A DNA stretch of 64,000 bases, taken from positions 134,775 through 198,774 of the forward strand of contig JAUYRP010000001.1 in the NCBI GenBank assembly GCA_030696695.1, given 5' to 3'. This document shows, piece after piece, positions 30,638-40,436 of the stretch; position 1 is the stretch's first letter, and each line of letters opens with the position of its first letter. This DNA comes from Methylophilus sp. (GTDB lineage Bacteria > Pseudomonadota > Gammaproteobacteria > Burkholderiales > Methylophilaceae). A program made the translations under genes and the position numbers. Below the pieces are notes generated by a model. That model ran no database searches and was not told the DNA's origin. It was given only the letters and a program-made list of their open reading frames with translations.

Positions 30638-31138
30638 TTATTGGGGTGGAATACGCAACATTTGACCAGGGTAAATTTTATCTGGGTGCGATAACATCGG
30701 CTTATTTGCCTCAAAAATTCGCATATACAAATTTGCGTTGCCGTAAAACTCTTTTGATATTTTCGACAGTGTATCACCGCGTACTACTGTGTAAAACTGT
30801 GGCGCTGCTTCCGCTTCAATCACACCCATTTGATCCTGCACATGCTCTACACCATCCACATTGCCACAGCATAGCAGGATTTTTTCCTTAATTTCCTGCG
30901 TGGCAGCCATCCCCTGCACAATCACCGTGCCCGACTTGCCATCAAAACCAATGGTCAATCCATCAGCAGTGAGATTCATTTTTGCAACATATGCCGCAAT
31001 TGCGTTAGCTGCTGCGCGATTCGCTGCCTCAACATTGACTGGCGTCGGTTCTTTTTTGGCGACTTGCTCCGCAGCCTTTGCTTCCCCAGTCCCAAATAGT
31101 TTCTCTCCTGCTTCTTTGATGAATGAAAATAATCCCAT
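30638..31138 (-). CDS. BON and LysM domain protein, Kbp/YgaU-like
   Basis: A 166-residue protein starting MGLFSFIKEAGEKLFG, as in E. coli Kbp (YgaU). A BON domain covers about residues 40-100 (TIGFDGKSGTVIVQGMA) and a LysM domain is at the C-terminus (FYTVVRGDTLSKISKEFYGN...IYPGQMLRIP). Kbp is a cytoplasmic potassium sensor. ATG at 31138 has a clear AAGGAG site, so the longer upstream reading is rejected. Confidence 0.92.
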   Translation of the reverse strand: MGLFSFIKEAGEKLFGTGEAKAAEQVAKKEPTPVNVEAANRAAANAIAAYVAKMNLTADGLTIGFDGKSGTVIVQGMAATQEIKEKILLCCGNVDGVEHVQDQMGVIEAEAAPQFYTVVRGDTLSKISKEFYGNANLYMRIFEANKPMLSHPDKIYPGQMLRIPPQ

Positions 31139-31290
31139 CTGCTTCTCCTTTTTTATTGAACAGCTTTTTTTGATAAAAGATAAAACATCACGACACATGA
31201 CTCGAGCGATCATAGATGAATTACTCTACATAGACTATGCGCGACTGAATAAATTTTGTAAAGGATTGTTACAAAGCCCGCTTTGTTTGC

Positions 31291-31296
31291 TATAAT
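31291..31296 (+). promoter_or_regulatory. Promoter -10 of the tRNA-Phe gene
   Basis: Perfect TATAAT followed by a GC-rich GCGCGGC discriminator, typical of stringently controlled stable RNA promoters. TTGTTA at 31266 is a possible -35 at 19-bp spacing. Confidence 0.7.
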
Positions 31297-31335
31297 GCGC
31301 GGCTTGCAATTCACATACAGTGCATTTGCAACGCT

Positions 31336-31454
<119 letters not shown>

Positions 31455-31744
31455 GTCCCGCAAAGAGCAATTTTATATCAGCCCTTGCTGTATTTACAAA
31501 ATGCTCATTAGCAAACTTAAACTTAGTTGCTTTCAAGCGACAACCCCAATACTACCAAACAGGGTATTGCAGCAATTAGTTTTGTGAAATCTAATAATTT
31601 CTAAATTACAAAAATTACCTTTTAATAACTCAATCATACTGGCTGATTTAAATTGACTGAATAATATTGCTTACATTGGTGGTTGAAGCAGTTTTGCAAA
31701 ATCATGTTCTGTTGCATTTAAAAACTCATAAGGGGAATAAGCAA
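31455..31744. other. AT-rich non-coding stretch inside the tRNA-Phe island
   Basis: About 290 bp of AT-rich sequence between the tRNA terminator and the lipoprotein gene. No supported gene, no hairpin of note. It must hold the promoter of the lipoprotein gene; AAGGGGAAT just before 31745 is its ribosome site. Confidence 0.5.
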
Positions 31745-33013
31745 ATGAACAAAGCAGTAATCAGGTATTCATTTCTAACTTTGATTGTTTTTTTAGCGGG
31801 TTGTGACGAACAGAAGCATTTCAATGAGAATTTTTCCAGCAGGTGGATAAATTCTTTTCGTCAATATCAAATACACCCAACTTTTACTTCAAAAGAAGAC
31901 ATTCAAGTGGGTGATTTGATATTAACCTGTGAGCTAGGTCAGCAAATTTACGCCGATAATAACAGCAAACTTTCTCCTATTTCGAATTTGTTGGCAAGGT
32001 TTAGTGTGAACAATGCATTGCAAACTTTTTACAACAAAAGCGTTAAGCTACCGCAAATAAAAGACAGTCAAACAGACAACATACCGGACACAGAGACAAA
32101 AGATGGCCTATCCAGAAGAATGATGGATTCAAGGATAATAGAGTTAAAAAATGCCGCCTTTCCTGATTTTTTATCTGCTCGGATATCCGGAAAAGACATC
32201 GGAGCCGCGCTACCAGCAGGTAAAGTAATGGCAGGTTTTGGAATATCTTCTAGTGACATTGAGTCTGTAAGTGTTTCCGTGCCGGCTGTAGGGACTTACC
32301 AGTTACCAATTGTAGATTTGGTATCAGCTGTAGCTCAAAAAGAAAATATTAGTGAGTGGAATCGAGTTAAAAAACTAGGTACTTATATTGAAAAATATGG
32401 AGAAAAAAATTGCGAAAATAAACAACCTTTGTTAATTCTTGTTTCAGAGGCTTATGCAGCTTACGGGTTAAAAGTAGATGTTAACCTTAGTTCAGCAGCA
32501 GCAGCCAAAATCAAAGCTGCTGTTAATGTAGTAGACAGCCAATCAAAACTAGATTTAATAAATGCTTTTGGAAGCATATTTGGCATCCCCGCTCAAAACT
32601 CAGAATCTGACAAGGGGCACGATTCTGCAACAAACCAAACAGCTGATGGAGATACAGTCAAAGTAGCTGCGGCAACAGATCAAGATTCCAATGAGGCATC
32701 AAAAGAACCTAAAGCTACTGATAGATTAAAAGAGTTCAGAGAATATCTTGATTTGGTAACCAACAAGTCAGACGCCAACTCTAACGTGGGGTACCCAGGT
32801 GTGGCATTTAGTACCTATTCAGCAAGTGTTTCTGGAATTACTATAGACAGAAAATTCGACACTCCGGTGGTAGTAGGAGTGAAAGGTGTTAAATTGGAGG
32901 TATGTAATACGAGTTTAGCCAAATCGTGCACAATTGAATTCCCAGATTCGTTGGATTCCATAATATCGCCGTCACCTGAACATACTCCATTAAAGAACCA
33001 AGCTAAACAGTAG
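31745..33013 (+). CDS. Orphan lipoprotein encoded in the tRNA-Phe island
   Basis: A 422-residue protein with a lipoprotein signal (MNKAVIRYSFLTLIVFLAGC, Cys20). Residues 45-60 (IQVGDLILTCELGQQIYAD) and 145-185 (a Ser/Val-rich SVSVSVPAVGTYQLP) look like beta-structure. An Ala/Lys-rich stretch near 250-275 and an Asp/Ser/Thr-rich low-complexity linker near 285-325 follow. I recognise no family. It is the only gene between the intact tRNA-Phe and its second partial copy, so it is probably cargo of an integrated element. An envelope location is likely; a defence or surface role is speculation. Confidence 0.75.
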   Translation: MNKAVIRYSFLTLIVFLAGCDEQKHFNENFSSRWINSFRQYQIHPTFTSKEDIQVGDLILTCELGQQIYADNNSKLSPISNLLARFSVNNALQTFYNKSVKLPQIKDSQTDNIPDTETKDGLSRRMMDSRIIELKNAAFPDFLSARISGKDIGAALPAGKVMAGFGISSSDIESVSVSVPAVGTYQLPIVDLVSAVAQKENISEWNRVKKLGTYIEKYGEKNCENKQPLLILVSEAYAAYGLKVDVNLSSAAAAKIKAAVNVVDSQSKLDLINAFGSIFGIPAQNSESDKGHDSATNQTADGDTVKVAAATDQDSNEASKEPKATDRLKEFREYLDLVTNKSDANSNVGYPGVAFSTYSASVSGITIDRKFDTPVVVGVKGVKLEVCNTSLAKSCTIEFPDSLDSIISPSPEHTPLKNQAKQ

Positions 33014-33053
33014 CAATCTACAGAGAGAGTAAAGTATCTATTGATAGTTTAAG

Positions 33054-33109
33054 TCTGCCCCCGGCCACCAGCATTTAAAAGCTCACATTTCTGTGAGCTT
33101 TTTTCATTT
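33054..33109. repeat. Attachment-site-like repeat, copy 2
   Basis: TCTGCCCCCGGCCACCAGCA plus TTTAAAA repeats the tRNA-Phe 3' end and its spacer exactly (27 nt). It is followed by its own perfect terminator hairpin and TTTTTTCATTT. It lies 1659 bp from copy 1 and marks the boundary of an inserted segment. Confidence 0.88.
33077..33104 (+). terminator. Duplicated terminator in repeat copy 2
   Basis: AAAAGCTCAC / GTGAGCTTTT perfect 10-bp stem with a 6-nt loop and T run; it can also serve the lipoprotein gene ending at 33013. Confidence 0.85.
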
Positions 33110-33149
33110 GGCGGTCAGTGTAGCTAGAATGTAGCCATCAACTTCGCGT

Positions 33150-33314
33150 CTAGTCCTTTTGTAGCAGTTGCCAAGTGCGCCGTAAGTCATGAAACCGAAA
33201 ATCTTCCGAGCCTGCTTTCTTGGGCACAGAGTAGTATTTTACGTAACCTTCCATTTGAGGTTTTGCTTTAATCTCATTAACTTGCTTGATATTTTGTGGG
33301 GCGAATTTTCAATG
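33150..33314 (-). pseudogene. Remnant of a tyrosine recombinase (integrase)
   Basis: Minus-strand translation gives about 50 residues ending at a TAG at 33150. They include KPQMEGYVKYYSVPKKAGSE followed directly by the box II motif FRFHDLRRTW of phage-type integrases, with its conserved His and Arg. Upstream the frame is closed by a stop. Downstream it stops seven codons after the motif, so the catalytic core, box I Arg and the C-terminal Tyr are missing. It lies 41 bp from repeat copy 2 and points at it, the usual integrase-att geometry. A decayed integrase is the best explanation. Confidence 0.75.
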
Positions 33315-33393
33315 ATTAAAAAATTTGAGTTAATATTTATCAACCATTATCTTAGTTTGAATTCTAAGAAGTTAATGCGTGGATAAAGACCAA

Positions 33394-36300
33394 TTAACTT
33401 CGCTCAGCAGATTGAAGCCATTCATTAACAGAATTCAATCCAATCGAAAGCAATCCGTCCTGTAAAAGTACAACACGATTTAGCATTGAACCGTTGTCAT
33501 ACTCCTCTCTTTCTTCAGCTTCACCAAAGAGACGAGTCATTAGTTGAGTTAATTGATTGTCATGATCATAAAAATGAGGATTGGTTTTTTTGATATAAGC
33601 CAAATAAATTTCAGCTGTGGATAGCGCTAGCTCTGGGTCACAATGAGAGACTGCATTGAGCCAATCGCTGAAGCCAAAAAGCCGATGGTATTTATTTTGC
33701 TCGTCCCGCTCAAAAGCCTCAAAGCTGCATTGAATCAATTTTAGTGGAATCACCACAAGCGGTTGATTGTCGCGAAAAATATGTTCAAGTAGGTTTGCGA
33801 TATTACTTTTGTTCAGAAATGGAGCATTCAATGCTGCTTCAATCCCAGCAAGACATATTTCGCGATGATGCTTGATATTCTCGGAATGAGTCCACACACT
33901 TGTAGCACCCTCCCATGCATCTGTAATATCAATATCATTTAAGTCATCTAAGAAATAAGTAAAATTAATATGTCCTGTTAGCGTGGCAAGCGCAGTAATT
34001 CGTCCCCATATTTCCATGTCTTTGTTGGAGCTTTCTGTTCGGATACGCTCCAAAAAAGGGCTAACAACGTCAAAGTTCTTATGGTATGCATAATAGAGAC
34101 AAGGCTCAGCAACTTTCCACAGCCCTTTTGAATCTTGCATGGCATTCTCAAACAAATCCCATCCCAAAGTTGGATTGAAACTCTGAAAATAAGCTAATCT
34201 CCTTAGAATCATCGCTCGAACAGCTGGATGATCGTGACGGGAAAATCGACATAGTGTTTGCTGTAACAACACTGGCAAAGGTAGCTGATTTTTCAATAGA
34301 TTTATAGCAACAACCATCAATGCATCGGCAACATTCCCACTCTTCATATTAAGGCCGCTAGTTAGAAAATCGTGAGCATCACCAATGATTATGATAGTTT
34401 CCACGTGGGTAGAAAAACCAACTGCCAAAAAGGCTAACCGCGTTGCATTATGAATATCTTCAATCACATGTGAACATGCTTCTAATGCTTTTGCAGCTGA
34501 GCGGTTATTCATCCAGTGAATAGGGTGTCTTTCCAGCTCGAGTAAAATATCATTTGCTAACTCAGCACCACTTGGCTCCTCTTGAGGCTCCCATGTACCA
34601 TTTGTCGACAAATTGCCATAGCGATAGGCTAAATAACTTGCTGCACCATCCATGATTTCATCACAAAACTCAGATGAAATGATTGGCCAATAAGTAGATA
34701 GAAACTTTAAGAAGCGAACTGGTTGACGAGAAGAGGCCTCACGAAGTTGCCATCCCACCTCTCGTTCACCTCCTATAAAACTAACAGACCATCCTCCCTC
34801 GCCGTAACCTGTATAGTGGGCCAGCAAGTTTAATATCCCTGTATCACTAGCATTGAGGAAAACCTCGTAAGAAAATGGCGCAGCTACAGTACCACTTCGC
34901 ATACCTATATCTGCTTGCAGAATAAACCTGCCGTTTGTTTTTTCGTAACTATCTATTAACCTTTGCGCCTCTTCTGTACGCAATTGGCATGGAACAGCGG
35001 ATATAAATTCCAGCCTTCTTTTTATCTTCCACCAGCGAGAATCCTCATCTGTTTCTTCATCCTCATGCCATATATTTAGCATCGTTGCTATTGCAACATC
35101 TTGTGTGGCCTCATCAAGGTAAATAAATGCCGATTTAATCAAATTAGCAATTTCAAATGAAAGACTAAACTCAAGTAAATCTCTGTTACTCAACAAACGA
35201 CCAATTACGTCTATATTTGTTTGAGGGTTTCTAGTAATAGCTAATATTCCGAAATAACATAATGCTCCTTCGTGATTAAAGCATAGTCGTTCACGGTTGA
35301 TGCTCCACCATTGAGAGTTATTGTGGGCATGATATAAAATCGCAGCCTCAATCGCATTAAAAAGTATTCGCTCACTATCCACATGTCGAATATCCATTTG
35401 CGTATGGGCATCGCTGTATGAAGTTTCACTTAAATATCCTTCTCGAAACCCTATGCGCGTATTACCATAAGGGTTGATACGAACCTCACCCCAATACTCA
35501 ACTGTGCTCAAGGCCAGATCAAGTAATGCGGTTGACTGCAACATCCTATTACTCAAAAATTGCTCTTTTTTACTCCCAAACTCATGAGGCTGGCATCTCA
35601 GTTTATTACCAAAGTGATGTTGAAGAATCGACTCTTCGTCTATTTCACTAGTCATATATTGCCAAAGCAAGTCGTCACTAATCGCACCAGCTTCTACAAA
35701 ACGCGCAACTGTTGCACCTAAAAAACTATGACGAGGCTTGGGCATGACAAGCAATCGATTTAGCAAGGTTGTAGCTAGCAACAAGTGCTCATCGTCAACA
35801 TCTGCCAAATACATTTCAAGTTGCGATGCAATTTTTTCGCTATTAAGCCAACTTGTTGCTAATGACTCCATCCAAAAAGCGAGCACTCCATTAGCATCAT
35901 CATTTTTCCATTGTGCTACTTTATAAACATGTGCCGTTAACCCATCTTCATCTTGGTTTACTTTCAAAACAGGTACTAAATGTTTAAACCAAAAGTAATG
36001 CCACTCAATAGAACTTGCCTGTTGGTAAATAACTTGAAAAATCTCACGATGATTGTTACGCAAATCCAGCAACATTCGCCAATCTTCGTCATTAGGATTA
36101 AGCTGCGAAAAATATTCAGCAACTAGTCTACGAATATGGAAAGCCGCGTTACTTGTGAAAACTGCTCTAATCTGTTTTCTAAAAACTGGGCGCTCCCCAA
36201 TTGCTAATTGAGCCACAAAACTACGTATACTTGGTCTAACAAAAGGAACTGGTGGTAAAGTTTGAATAAACTGATTGAGGGTAACACCTTGTCTTATTGC

Positions 36301-37968
36301 TCCGCTAATAACTAGTACATCTAACAGTGTTTGATGTCCAAAAGTAATTTTTCCATCGTGTGTATCTTGAATGACATTCAGGCTGCGTAGCTTCCTTAGA
36401 ATATCAGATGATGTTTTGAATTGCTGAGATGGTATAGATAGACTACGTGTTTGAAGCATTACTTTCGCCATCTGCTCAATTGCCTGCAATGCAATATCAC
36501 CAAGGCTAGGGTCAGCCTGCACAATTACCTCAAGATAACGTTGAGCCAATCCTTGACTCGTGACTATATTAAAACTACCGCCACGTTGCGCCAACTCAAC
36601 AAACAAAGCCAATTCACGCGGATTTTGAATAAGTGCTCTTGTTGTAACATCTATAGCTGTTGAATCAATACTCAGAGTGCTTAGTAAAGGTAGCACCTCT
36701 TTTTCCCAATCTAATGGCAAGCATTTAACCTCCCAATCCCATGTGCGATTAACTATTCGGTAATCATAGCGTCGATCAAAGTCACGACATGCAGTTACAA
36801 CACTAAGGTTAGGAATCCTTAACAGTTGGTCTATTTGCGCCAAAAAATAGGTTAATACGCTGTGTTCGCGAGCTATAGATAAAACATCTAAAGAGTCGAT
36901 TACGATGACCACATATTTGTGCTCTGCCAATCGTGCTGCTTGCTCAACCCACTGATTTGGCAAGCCCTGAGCTTGAAGTTCAGATGCTGTAGAAAAATCT
37001 GCGAATTCCCGCGATTGAATAAAAAGTGGAATTAAATCATTTTCTGTTTTAGCGCGTTGTTCAAGTGCCTCTTGCAAGCTGAGCATTACACAAGTTTTAC
37101 CGCTGCCAGGAAGTCCGGTAAGTAAAACAGCTCGCTTCTTATCATTAATAGCGACAAGAAGTTCGCTCACTGTTTTGTTTTGAATACTCTGACCAGAAAT
37201 ATCGCGCTGCCAATTTCTACCTATAGCCGATGTTCTTGAAAAAGATGCCTGCACTTCAGTCACCTCCATTGGCGGTGCTAACACCGCACCAGACTGAAGA
37301 ATAATTTCCTTAAGGTCACATTTGGTCAATCTAAACTTTGGTGAAACAGACAAACCACCTACTGAGATATGTCCGCCAAGAAGATCCAGCTGCGTCCATA
37401 CAGCATTAAACGCTAAGTCAGATCTACTGGCCAAATTGCGCAACCGTTCGCGCAAAATAAGCTCTTTTTGATCGTAATCATGATCAATATTGAAAGAGGT
37501 GCGAATAAGAAACTGATAACTTGTAAGGTTAGGCACTACTTTGGTAATGACCTGCGTCAATAAGTTGTTTGTCTCGGTATGCTCTTTGGTCAACTCTTTA
37601 AGATAATATGCTTCAGAACTATAATTAACGGCGAATTCACGGAGCTTAGCTAGTTGACCAAACTCACCGCGCGAGTAAAAGCGAATATTTACATTAGGAG
37701 AGTTTTCTAGAGTATTGGCAGCCTTTTGTATTTCATCTGACAAATCAGACAGAGACCAAGCTCTAAAATCGGGTTGGTTTTTTTTGCACTGACAACAAAT
37801 AATCGTGCCATCAGATTTGCCAATAACAACATCATCAACATCATATTGAGTTGAGTCTACCTCAAGCCAATCAAACTGAGGGTCAGTAAGAACAAATAGC
37901 GCCCAATCGAAAGCAACGAGTGTTTGGTAAATATCCCCACGATTTGATCTTAGGCCAGATACGCTCAT
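33394..37968 (-). CDS. Nuclease-STAND NTPase, putative anti-phage sensor
   Basis: A 1524-residue protein of three parts. Residues 1-110: a PD-(D/E)XK-like nuclease resembling Cap4, with NRGDIYQTLVAFDWAL and the active-site pattern VDDVVIG (Asp45/Asp46) then CQCKKN (Gln60, Lys62). Residues 270-560: a STAND/NACHT-type NTPase with Walker A TGLPGSGKT (285-292), Walker B VVIVIDSLD (353-361), the sensor-like TACRDFD (392-398) and the winged-helix FGHQTLLDVL (543-552). Residues 560-1524: long alpha-helical, repeat-like sensor region. The build matches Avs-type defence proteins that cut DNA on recognising a phage protein. No ribosome site is evident before ATG 37968. It is a single gene inside a decayed tRNA island and visibly more AT-rich than its surroundings. 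Confidence 0.82.
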   Translation of the reverse strand: MSVSGLRSNRGDIYQTLVAFDWALFVLTDPQFDWLEVDSTQYDVDDVVIGKSDGTIICCQCKKNQPDFRAWSLSDLSDEIQKAANTLENSPNVNIRFYSRGEFGQLAKLREFAVNYSSEAYYLKELTKEHTETNNLLTQVITKVVPNLTSYQFLIRTSFNIDHDYDQKELILRERLRNLASRSDLAFNAVWTQLDLLGGHISVGGLSVSPKFRLTKCDLKEIILQSGAVLAPPMEVTEVQASFSRTSAIGRNWQRDISGQSIQNKTVSELLVAINDKKRAVLLTGLPGSGKTCVMLSLQEALEQRAKTENDLIPLFIQSREFADFSTASELQAQGLPNQWVEQAARLAEHKYVVIVIDSLDVLSIAREHSVLTYFLAQIDQLLRIPNLSVVTACRDFDRRYDYRIVNRTWDWEVKCLPLDWEKEVLPLLSTLSIDSTAIDVTTRALIQNPRELALFVELAQRGGSFNIVTSQGLAQRYLEVIVQADPSLGDIALQAIEQMAKVMLQTRSLSIPSQQFKTSSDILRKLRSLNVIQDTHDGKITFGHQTLLDVLVISGAIRQGVTLNQFIQTLPPVPFVRPSIRSFVAQLAIGERPVFRKQIRAVFTSNAAFHIRRLVAEYFSQLNPNDEDWRMLLDLRNNHREIFQVIYQQASSIEWHYFWFKHLVPVLKVNQDEDGLTAHVYKVAQWKNDDANGVLAFWMESLATSWLNSEKIASQLEMYLADVDDEHLLLATTLLNRLLVMPKPRHSFLGATVARFVEAGAISDDLLWQYMTSEIDEESILQHHFGNKLRCQPHEFGSKKEQFLSNRMLQSTALLDLALSTVEYWGEVRINPYGNTRIGFREGYLSETSYSDAHTQMDIRHVDSERILFNAIEAAILYHAHNNSQWWSINRERLCFNHEGALCYFGILAITRNPQTNIDVIGRLLSNRDLLEFSLSFEIANLIKSAFIYLDEATQDVAIATMLNIWHEDEETDEDSRWWKIKRRLEFISAVPCQLRTEEAQRLIDSYEKTNGRFILQADIGMRSGTVAAPFSYEVFLNASDTGILNLLAHYTGYGEGGWSVSFIGGEREVGWQLREASSRQPVRFLKFLSTYWPIISSEFCDEIMDGAASYLAYRYGNLSTNGTWEPQEEPSGAELANDILLELERHPIHWMNNRSAAKALEACSHVIEDIHNATRLAFLAVGFSTHVETIIIIGDAHDFLTSGLNMKSGNVADALMVVAINLLKNQLPLPVLLQQTLCRFSRHDHPAVRAMILRRLAYFQSFNPTLGWDLFENAMQDSKGLWKVAEPCLYYAYHKNFDVVSPFLERIRTESSNKDMEIWGRITALATLTGHINFTYFLDDLNDIDITDAWEGATSVWTHSENIKHHREICLAGIEAALNAPFLNKSNIANLLEHIFRDNQPLVVIPLKLIQCSFEAFERDEQNKYHRLFGFSDWLNAVSHCDPELALSTAEIYLAYIKKTNPHFYDHDNQLTQLMTRLFGEAEEREEYDNGSMLNRVVLLQDGLLSIGLNSVNEWLQSAERS

Positions 37969-38271
37969 TTTTATTAAATTTAATTGAGTAAACTTTTATA
38001 GTAACCTATCAAATAGATATTCAAGATGGTTGAGTAGTTAAAATTCTAACTGGGCCACCCTCACTGTGGACTACCCGCGGTTTATACCCAAGCATGCTCC
38101 CTCTACTTATCCCCTGTTAGCATTCCTAAAATGTATTGCGCATAAAAGACTAGAAAAATGTGATACATTTTCATTCAGTAGATTTAATCATTTTTTTCAT
38201 GATTGATTGTTCTTCAACATTGCAAACTGCTAGTTACTGAGTACGAGTATTACTTAATAAAGGGTAAGCCT
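37969..38271. other. Non-coding stretch between divergent island genes
   Basis: It carries the divergent 5' regions of the nuclease-STAND and DUF2189 genes. Most is AT-rich, but 38050-38140 is a GC-richer block with no reading frame, possibly a scar of a lost mobile element. An AAAATG...CATTTT inverted pair is near 38155-38173. Nothing else is recognised. Confidence 0.45.
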
Positions 38272-39060
38272 ATGAACAAAAACGTGATGTCTTCTTCTAT
38301 CGGCGCTAAAGAAAGTAATACTGTCATTCGTCATGTTCATGCTGGAATCATTATCGACTGGCTACATTCTGGCGTGGAAGATGCGCATCGTGGTGGTTGG
38401 GCAAGTTTGTTCTATGGTTTTGTGTTTACATTTGTTGGTTTGTTTATTCATATCATGTACGCCGAGCATTATTGGCTTTTAGCTGGGCTAACCACAGGCT
38501 TTTTCTTGCTCGGCCCTTTTCTCGCGACTGGGTTATATGATTTGAGTCGTCGGATGGAAAATGGCGAATCTCCTTCACTGATACCAACCCTTACAGCCTG
38601 GCGCACAAACCTTGCTAATATCTTTTTGTTTACATTGTTATTGCTTGCTATCTTTTTAATCTGGACATTGGCATCTCTCAGCATTTTTTCACACTTTTTT
38701 AATGGTGCATTACCAACATTTACCGATATTGTGATTAGTGTGATTAAGTTTAAACAACCTCTATTTACACTGATATATTTTTCTATAGGTGGGTTATTTG
38801 CTATTTTTGTGTATGCCATCAGCGTGGTTGCTATACCGCTAATGCTTGATTGCAAGGTAAATGCTGCAACTGCGGCTTTAGTTAGCCTGCGAGCATGCAC
38901 CCGCAACCCAGTTGTAATGTTACTTTGGGCTTTTTGTATTGTCGTACTTGTGGGTGTTGGTCTTGCTACAAGTTTTCTAGGTTTGTTTCTGTTCATGCCA
39001 ATCGTCGGGCACGCTAGCTGGCATGTTTATAAAGACTTGATAGATACAAATTATCTGTAA
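38272..39060 (+). CDS. DUF2189 integral membrane protein
   Basis: A 262-residue protein with about six membrane segments. It matches DUF2189 proteins through WLHSGVEDAHRGGWASLFYG, FFLLGPFLATGLYDLSRRME and the C-terminal GHASWHVYKDLI. No function is established; the family is common in beta- and alphaproteobacteria. ATG at 38272 has an AAGGGT site. It lies between the STAND gene and repeat copy 3, so it is either cargo or a displaced core gene. Confidence 0.9.
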   Translation: MNKNVMSSSIGAKESNTVIRHVHAGIIIDWLHSGVEDAHRGGWASLFYGFVFTFVGLFIHIMYAEHYWLLAGLTTGFFLLGPFLATGLYDLSRRMENGESPSLIPTLTAWRTNLANIFLFTLLLLAIFLIWTLASLSIFSHFFNGALPTFTDIVISVIKFKQPLFTLIYFSIGGLFAIFVYAISVVAIPLMLDCKVNAATAALVSLRACTRNPVVMLLWAFCIVVLVGVGLATSFLGLFLFMPIVGHASWHVYKDLIDTNYL

Positions 39061-39145
39061 CGCGGTTAGCGCTTTTTGATCCGGGTGTTTTTTAACAGGT
39101 GGTTTTGATCATATAGCTTTATTACATTTGAAATTCAGATTCTTT

Positions 39146-39215
39146 GCAGTTCGATTCCGGCTCATGGCCACCAGCTAGTAGAAAGCTCACAGAGATGTGG
39201 GCTTTTTTCATTTAA
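39146..39215. repeat. Attachment-site-like repeat, copy 3
   Basis: GCAGTTCGATTC (T-arm segment of tRNA-Phe) and GGCCACCAGC are exact matches separated by diverged bases. Next come AAAGCTCACAGAGATG and TGGGCTTTTTTCATTTAAT, together a 35-nt exact match to the tRNA terminator and flank. This marks the far end of the island, 7.8 kb from the tRNA. Confidence 0.85.
39181..39207. terminator. Duplicated tRNA terminator in repeat copy 3
   Basis: AAAGCTCAC / GTGGGCTTT stem with an AGAGAT loop and T run, identical to the tRNA-Phe terminator; it would terminate the DUF2189 transcript. Confidence 0.75.
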
Positions 39216-39254
39216 TCGTACGTAACCAAATCGTATACCACGTGTTTAGTTAAA

Positions 39255-40436
39255 TTACCCTGCAATACAGGCAGTTGTATGCAAAACCACTTTGTTTCTG
39301 CCGCTATGCTTGGCTTTGTATAACGCTTGGTCTGCTGCTGACAACATGGTTTTGAATTCCACTCCCACCTGCGAAGAGTCGACAATGCCGATGCTTATCG
39401 AAGTTTTGATGACTTTGCCACCCACTAAAAATGAGGTTGATGCGTACGCTTCACGCACACGATTTGCGATGATTAATGCTTCAGCTGTATCGGTTGAGGG
39501 CAGTAACACACAAAATTCATCACCACCATAACGCGCAAAATAATCATTTGTCCTAATTTTTGTAGCAACAATGATGGCTAGTCCGCGCAATATTTCGTCA
39601 CCATTAAGATGCCCATAGTTGTCGTTAATGGATTTGAAATTGTCTATATCAATGAGCATTAAAGAAAACTTATCCCCGATGCGCTTGCTACGCGATTGCA
39701 GCTTTGCAATTTCTTCTTCCAACAGCCGGCGGTTGAATGCACCTGTCAATGGGTCACGCGTTGCAAATTGCTCAATCTCAGTCATAACTTGACGATTAAG
39801 CATGACTAAAAAGCCGAATGTGACACACAGCTGCAACGCACAGGTAATTAAGAATGTGGCTGGGTTAACGGGAATATTGGCATATAAGCTATATGTTTCT
39901 GGCGAGGATTGTGACAAGACAATGGCCCTGATGAGCATTGCGAGTGAGAGTAACGCAAACGAAAACCCTGTCAGCCATGAGATAGATTTAAGCTTAGGTT
40001 TGCTGCGGACAATTGTTTCGCTGGCGCACGCGGCATAACCGATAGAACATATAAGCGAGTTTGCGACGGTGCGAGAGATAATGTCTGGATGAATAAACTC
40101 AAACCAATAGGTTTGAAATGTGGCCACACTCACAAAAACTACTGCCGGCCACACATAAACTTGGCCAGATTTAAATGATTGAATGCCCGTGAATTGCAGT
40201 GCAATGCTTGTGGTGATGAGTGTCGTGCCGAGCAAAACCGCATATTTGGCATTTGCAGTAGGTGTTTGAAAGAAATAGGCAGAACCTAGGCCAACGGCAA
40301 TACACAGACTGGCGATTGACCACTGTTTTACGCTATTGATGCTGCGTGTATGCAAGCCTGCAGATAAAATTAAGCCAGAAAATAGTAAGGACAGCATGGC
40401 AAATAACACCATAATCGTGCGGACATCTAGATTCAT
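39255..40436 (-). CDS. Membrane-bound diguanylate cyclase (GGDEF)
   Basis: A 393-residue protein. Residues 1-215 hold about seven hydrophobic segments, a putative sensor region. Residues 225-385 form a GGDEF domain with RDPLTGAFNRR, the active motif ARYGGDEF at 301-308, and an intact product-inhibition I-site RTND at 295-298, five residues upstream. It should make cyclic di-GMP from GTP, with feedback control. The signal sensed is unknown. No EAL domain. It is a single gene next to the island boundary, and the distant MSHA-type pilus is a plausible output because MshE proteins can bind c-di-GMP. Confidence 0.93.
   Translation of the reverse strand: MNLDVRTIMVLFAMLSLLFSGLILSAGLHTRSINSVKQWSIASLCIAVGLGSAYFFQTPTANAKYAVLLGTTLITTSIALQFTGIQSFKSGQVYVWPAVVFVSVATFQTYWFEFIHPDIISRTVANSLICSIGYAACASETIVRSKPKLKSISWLTGFSFALLSLAMLIRAIVLSQSSPETYSLYANIPVNPATFLITCALQLCVTFGFLVMLNRQVMTEIEQFATRDPLTGAFNRRLLEEEIAKLQSRSKRIGDKFSLMLIDIDNFKSINDNYGHLNGDEILRGLAIIVATKIRTNDYFARYGGDEFCVLLPSTDTAEALIIANRVREAYASTSFLVGGKVIKTSISIGIVDSSQVGVEFKTMLSAADQALYKAKHSGRNKVVLHTTACIAG

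Follow-up and report, generated by a model that had tools for sequence, protein, structure and literature searches.

A probable Avs-like nuclease-STAND immune receptor carried as mobile cargo in Methylophilus sp.

Can a single large gene standing alone beside a tRNA gene be recognised as a phage sensor of bacterial immunity, and would it then be one of a new kind? These questions are raised by an open reading frame (ORF) at positions 33394–37968 on the minus strand of a 64,000-nucleotide stretch of Methylophilus sp. contig JAUYRP010000001.1 (hereafter the window), which a preliminary description made from the letters alone had presented as a nuclease-STAND protein and candidate new antiphage sensor. 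Our analysis points with good confidence to an Avs-like immune receptor that is encoded by one gene and travels as mobile cargo, for which response to a trigger, assembly and DNA cutting are proposed. Because relatives occur in many bacteria and one of them has a solved structure, it looks like a real defence gene but not like a new kind of one. The sequences and models behind this reading indicate three domains whose catalytic and nucleotide-binding residues are intact, in a setting that is mobile and in part linked to defence; in one branch, a caspase has taken the place of the nuclease.

The ORF is a single frame of 1524 amino acids (aa) with an ATG start and without internal stop, present as one copy in the 2.98-Mb host genome. 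Its GC content of 40.5%, versus 45.8% in the window outside positions 31412–39216, agrees with its earlier depiction as AT-rich. From N- to C-terminus, the product is predicted to comprise a PD-(D/E)XK-type nuclease, a NACHT-like STAND nucleoside triphosphatase (NTPase) and an all-helical, HEAT-like solenoid. In an alignment with 38 of 53 related loci (the other 15 being partial or not one open frame), residues D45, D46, Q60, K62, G288, G290, K291, T292, D358, D361, R395 and H545 were invariant in all 39 sequences, and 29 of these, chosen by eye for diversity, were used for structure modelling. The AlphaFold2 model of residues 1–620 alone reached a mean local confidence (pLDDT) of 87 and a global confidence (pTM) of 0.81 and contains both a nuclease and an NTPase fold. 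Profiles, invariant residues and models thus bear out the proposed build of nuclease, STAND NTPase and long helical C-terminus.

Sequence and model alike predict an N-terminal nuclease effector with an intact active site. The PADLOC profile of LmuA, the nuclease of Lamassu, matches residues 11–166 of the query (E = 6.2e-5) and, with residues 1–620 as search space, 28 of 29 family members (best E = 1.5e-9). Residues 14–99 are modelled as a helix, three strands, a helix and a strand, which we take to be the order of PD-(D/E)XK nucleases, with D45/D46 directly ahead of strand two and Q60-x-K62 closing strand three. Of the earlier assignment to the Cap4 type, the PD-(D/E)XK-like fold and its four kept residues stand, next to the LmuA match, but Pfam Cap4_nuclease (PF14130) misses the query and finds only 2 of 29 members in the same residue range. 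LmuA works with an SMC protein; no such LmuB is among the matches listed for the scanned neighbours of the receptor genes, SMC genes not having been sought in every locus.

The central region is predicted to be a STAND/NACHT NTPase with Walker A, Walker B and a winged helix, in agreement with the first description of intact Walker motifs: Pfam AAA matches above its cut-off (E = 7.8e-5) and NACHT (2.9e-5) and AAA_16 (2e-5) below theirs, the motif residues are among the invariant ones, and the fold is modelled accordingly. The invariant His545 is presumably the winged-helix histidine of STAND proteins. PADLOC further gives matches to PDC-M54A (25 of 29 members; query E = 8.2e-9), a candidate rather than a tested system, whose profile of 1621 positions is matched by residues 444–550 of the query only.

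Residues 550–1524 are helical almost throughout in the AlphaFold2 model (pLDDT 87, pTM 0.57), consistent with a long helical region that may serve as sensor. Foldseek places this model next to CAND1, karyopherins and the like (best E = 9.6e-6, query TM-scores 0.14–0.30), which we read as a generic solenoid match. The preliminary description had seen about 960 residues of helical sensor without a known repeat; the helical nature holds in the model, and the evidence points only weakly to a sensor unlike known ones, given that Avs C-termini are absent among the best 50 Foldseek rows and that the sensor profile finds no solved sequence at E ≤ 1 except the chain of PDB entry 9n00.

This entry bears on the question of novelty. 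A sequence search of the PDB returned 9n00_A (also 9n01 and 9yix), a full-length relative of 1523 aa named "AAA family ATPase", with 1927 bits over query residues 1–1523, and in view of these three entries the expectation of a new kind of sensor is not supported, or at best partly right. The solved chain shares the domain order and the active-site and Walker A residues and belongs to the same family by full-length homology, and it is a different protein, with 166 of the first 300 residues identical to the query. A literature search found no paper naming or describing 9N00, 9N01 or 9YIX, and 9n00 is not among the best 50 Foldseek rows for residues 1–620 (structure library entries to 2026-04-08).

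Those rows are led by Avs4 with portal (8dgf, E = 3.5e-14) and Avs3 with terminase (8dgc, E = 6.1e-13), followed lower down by ORC, p97, NOD2, NLRP7, NLRP9 and NLRP3. The likeness in build to Avs proteins that had been proposed is thereby upheld, and effector and NTPase appear to share the Avs fold at low global TM-score. Avs3, which has an N-terminal nuclease, has the STAND NTPase and the long C-terminal sensor in common with the query; it shows no sequence match, and the query's own sensor model resembles HEAT-type solenoids. Avs4, the best fold match, likewise lacks a sequence match: neither Avs chain was found in the PDB with the query at E ≤ 1 or with the family profiles at E ≤ 0.1 and E ≤ 1. 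PADLOC 2.0.0, which we understand to include Avs models, gave none among the 8 families matching the whole query, among the 9 listed for its residues 1–620, or among the best 25 of 31 families matched by these residues in 29 members, so that the anticipated profile match to Avs failed to appear. These sequence searches do not place the protein in Avs1–Avs5, and we assign it to the 9n00 family, within the nuclease-STAND kind. Animal NLRs such as NOD2 and NLRP3 and bacterial NACHT proteins have the NACHT-like NTPase in common with it; NLRs carry a death-fold head and leucine-rich repeats, whereas the query has a nuclease head and a HEAT-like solenoid. The introduction of one paper (PMC12931631) describes the nuclease effectors of Avs1–Avs4 as killing the cell by cleaving phage and host genomes, and terminase, portal or Ksap1 are named there as what Avs1–Avs4 recognise. 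PDB searches with portal and terminase of a prophage carrying a relative (locus L087) and of T7, four proteins in all, gave no row naming 9n00, 9n01 or 9yix; the T7 proteins did return 8dgf and 8dgc, which shows that searching by phage chain works for such pairs of receptor and trigger.

A second branch of the family suggests that the nuclease is a replaceable part. Matches were found on nine plasmids, and the proteins on four cyanobacterial ones align with the query from residue 211 only (30% identity to residue 1521); both of the two that were opened were typed conjugative. The one scanned protein of this group, from a plasmid of Tolypothrix PCC 7712 (locus L055, 6888–12017), carries a caspase domain at its N-terminus (Pfam E = 1.6e-12). 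Between caspase and NTPase it aligns with the start of the nuclease of a Nostoc MS1 relative (47% over 64 columns, E = 5e-16) and then with the linker of that relative (55% over 99 columns, E = 4e-30), about 87 residues in between being absent, where these E-values stem from single pairs without composition correction. The remnant has the D-D pair changed to N-N and has lost the catalytic lysine. A comparison with the window protein hardly reveals it (26 columns, E = 0.049), so that the case for an effector swap rests on the Nostoc MS1 relative, which keeps the nuclease motif and is itself split by an IS630 transposase. We read the Tolypothrix sequence as a fossil effector swap: the protein gained a caspase while its nuclease fell into decay, and the nuclease would accordingly be a replaceable effector. 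Beside the caspase version lie genes for a trypsin-like peptidase and a caspase-nSTAND1-WD40 protein, and a gene of comparable size and surroundings lies on a Nostoc carneum plasmid (L089, 4888–10023; head not scanned).

The nuclease-STAND gene is an accessory gene. Among 61 genomes, comprising the window's own and 60 relatives, it matched in its own only (0 of 21 congeners, 0 of 60 relatives). Across the order, a match turned up in 7 of 399 sampled genomes, counting the window's own; 5 of these matches span the full length, each from a different family. In a sample of the phylum the sensor profile found 3 of 398, again own included. The 53 related loci come from gamma- and betaproteobacteria, Geobacter, Nitrospira, Chlorobium, cyanobacteria and a Paceibacterota bin, where bins may hold stray contigs. 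No match was seen in 20,395 E. coli records; this search, made at the DNA level and using 3769 of 4575 bases, would miss distant proteins. Phylum labels need 8 changes on the tree of these proteins (minimum 6), against a mean of 9.9 after shuffling, where 1 shuffle in 200 got down to 8, and Chlorobiota pair with Legionellaceae (98); this partly clustered and partly mixed pattern suggests horizontal transfer without proving it. L025 and L028, two close homologues located near a purL-like gene, sit on a long branch (1.16) in the same part of the tree as the window protein, indicating fast change, and their letter composition is also unusual.

Signs of mobility also come from the loci themselves. 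Relatives lie on five distinct viral contigs, and both of those with scanned neighbours carry prophage genes: in L084 the receptor gene comes after tail and endolysin genes, and in L087 it has endolysin genes on one side and replication genes on the other, portal and terminase being close by. Because of this position beside phage genes, these receptors may act in competition between phages. At L036 (14834–18245), genes for TnsA, a Mu-type transposase and TniB adjoin the receptor gene, a possible case of Tn7-like carriage. Homologues are therefore not confined to core loci, being found in prophages, beside Tn7-type genes and on plasmids, with others among ordinary genes.

As for partners, none recurred among ORFs of at least 90 aa within 9 kb of the receptor gene in 36 of the 53 loci, and a dedicated partner gene was rejected on this basis. 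The widest neighbour cluster spans 5 loci, with its example about 8 kb from the receptor gene; clusters at 3 loci hold an integrase-like gene and what we take to be GluRS-like and purL-like genes. When 10 neighbour proteins were picked by eye among the listed loci, 7 matched PADLOC, namely GajA and GajB of Gabija (L031), a UG17 reverse transcriptase (DRT) with SLATT (L017), AbiEii (L007), a type I methyltransferase (L021) and a type IIG enzyme (L047). Defence neighbours thus accompany some relatives, with Gabija, DRT, AbiE and restriction genes; 17 of 20 nearest neighbours taken by a fixed rule lack a PADLOC match.

Within the window, the gene sits between the second and third of three repeats of the tRNA-Phe 3′ end and terminator (Table 1). 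The three repeats make the island look like two abutting segments, and the mobile setting that had been proposed for a stand-alone gene in a tRNA island is supported. No evident integrase was found among window ORFs of at least 80 aa, two of which were scanned by profile, and Rfam at gathering scores reported tRNA only in window positions 31000–39500. The first segment holds an ORF of 448 aa (31667–33013) with a lipoprotein-like start by eye and no Pfam or PHROGs match at E ≤ 0.01. Inside the segment of the receptor gene lies a gene for a DUF2189 membrane protein (38203–39060), and similar genes (64–68% DNA identity) occur in several congeners on other contigs or at other places. At the same tRNA-Phe, congener G012 has an island with a tyrosine integrase, KwaB, HamA with a DEAD helicase, and DUF6615 (L065, 3500–16700); about 28 kb separate tRNA-Phe there from the match to a cfa-like gene of the far flank, versus about 10 kb in the window. 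This tRNA gene may be a defence hotspot of the genus.

Table 1. Coordinates of the receptor gene, its predicted parts and the surrounding island in the window.
Feature	Position	Strand	Basis
tRNA-Phe (GAA), presumed integration target	31336..31411	+	tRNA detection; Rfam
First attachment-like repeat (tRNA-Phe 3′ part and terminator)	31367..31454	+	repeat comparison
Second attachment-like repeat, just beyond 3′ end of nuclease-STAND gene	33046..33112	+	86% over 65 columns
Nuclease-STAND-sensor protein P0001	33394..37968	-	intact ORF; 53 related loci; solved relative 9n00
All-helical HEAT-like solenoid, presumed sensor, residues 560–1524	33397..36291	-	AlphaFold2 pLDDT 87; Foldseek karyopherins, CAND1
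STAND/NACHT-like NTPase with winged helix (predicted), residues 265–560	36289..37176	-	Pfam AAA/NACHT; Foldseek Avs4, Avs3, NOD2, NLRP3
His545 in FGHQTLLD	36334..36336	-	invariant 39/39
Walker B VVIVIDSLD, residues 353–361	36886..36912	-	sequence; 39-sequence alignment
Walker A GLPGSGKT, residues 285–292	37093..37116	-	sequence; 39-sequence alignment
N-terminal PD-(D/E)XK (LmuA/Cap4-like) nuclease domain (predicted), residues 1–110	37639..37968	-	LmuA profile; modelled strand order
Predicted nuclease active site, residues 45–62 (D45, D46, Q60-x-K62)	37783..37836	-	39/39 invariant; also in 9n00
Third attachment-like repeat, right end of segment with nuclease-STAND gene	39128..39216	+	82% over 89 columns

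How might such a receptor work? At rest, the NTPase would be inactive and locked on its nucleotide. A phage product made during infection would bind the C-terminal helical solenoid, upon which the NTPase would bind ATP and several copies would assemble, as kinship with Avs proteins and NLRs suggests. The N-terminal PD-(D/E)XK domains, brought together in this way, would cleave double-stranded DNA and halt the phage, with a probable cost to the cell.

Several results weigh against an Avs-like immune receptor. No match was found in 50,697 phage records, and no PADLOC, Pfam, NCBIfam or PHROGs model spans the whole protein, PHROGs giving no match at E ≤ 0.01 for it or its two island neighbours. 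The Foldseek superposition is local only, with a query TM-score of 0.29 for Avs4 and Avs3 and a root mean square deviation above 20; NOD2 reaches a global TM-score of 0.40 at best, and with such low values the likeness to Avs and NOD2 is one at domain level. In the PDB, the family profile ranks Pch2/TRIP13 (E = 1.2e-5) and RuvB-like AAA ATPases next after 9n00, rather than Avs. Several receptor loci sit among ordinary genes. A fixed rule, set after the neighbour listing had been viewed, took the first 10 loci whose 10-kb flanks were complete and, on either side of the receptor gene, the closest ORF with 130 aa or more; of these 20 nearest neighbours 3 match PADLOC at 1e-8 (AbiEii, PDC-S23/S05 and MTase_I), a figure that comes without a background rate.

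A regulator or housekeeping ATPase without immune role would suit the Pfam matches, which are to generic AAA and NACHT models, the many loci that adjoin ordinary genes, and the lack of a PADLOC match in 17 of 20 nearest neighbours; sporadic presence, mobile setting, nuclease head and effector swap make this reading highly improbable. Defence aimed not at phages but at plasmids or other mobile elements, by sensing the processing of foreign DNA, is unlikely in our view and still deserves more weight: the nuclease is LmuA-like, Lamassu acts on plasmids too, and prophages, islands and plasmids that carry the receptor may use it against any rivals. It is opposed by the lack of a recurrent partner in 36 loci, where SMC genes were not sought by profile, and by the fold, which is nearest to Avs3 and Avs4 as solved with phage proteins. 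The carriage by prophages and islands and the nuclease head would also fit an addiction module that keeps its element in the cell, with defence as a secondary effect; among ORFs of at least 90 aa no small partner gene recurs, and an NLR-like switch with a 960-residue tail seems to us a costly build for such a purpose, so that we give this idea very little credence.

Within the preferred reading of an Avs-like immune receptor, we tentatively propose, with rather less than even confidence, a receptor family outside Avs1–Avs5 with an exchangeable head, in which the HEAT-like solenoid recognises some phage feature that is neither terminase nor portal, a caspase having taken over on cyanobacterial plasmids and left a dead nuclease stump behind. 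If true, one type of sensor drives either DNA cutting or proteolysis. More generally, the family would add a far-flung branch to the bacterial NLR-like receptors, of a sort that annotation based on family libraries would miss because no library model spans the whole protein. The caspase version with its nuclease fossil may illustrate how receptors swap their killing heads while the sensor is kept, and natural proteins that combine one type of sensor with two heads would make a clean test of modularity possible.

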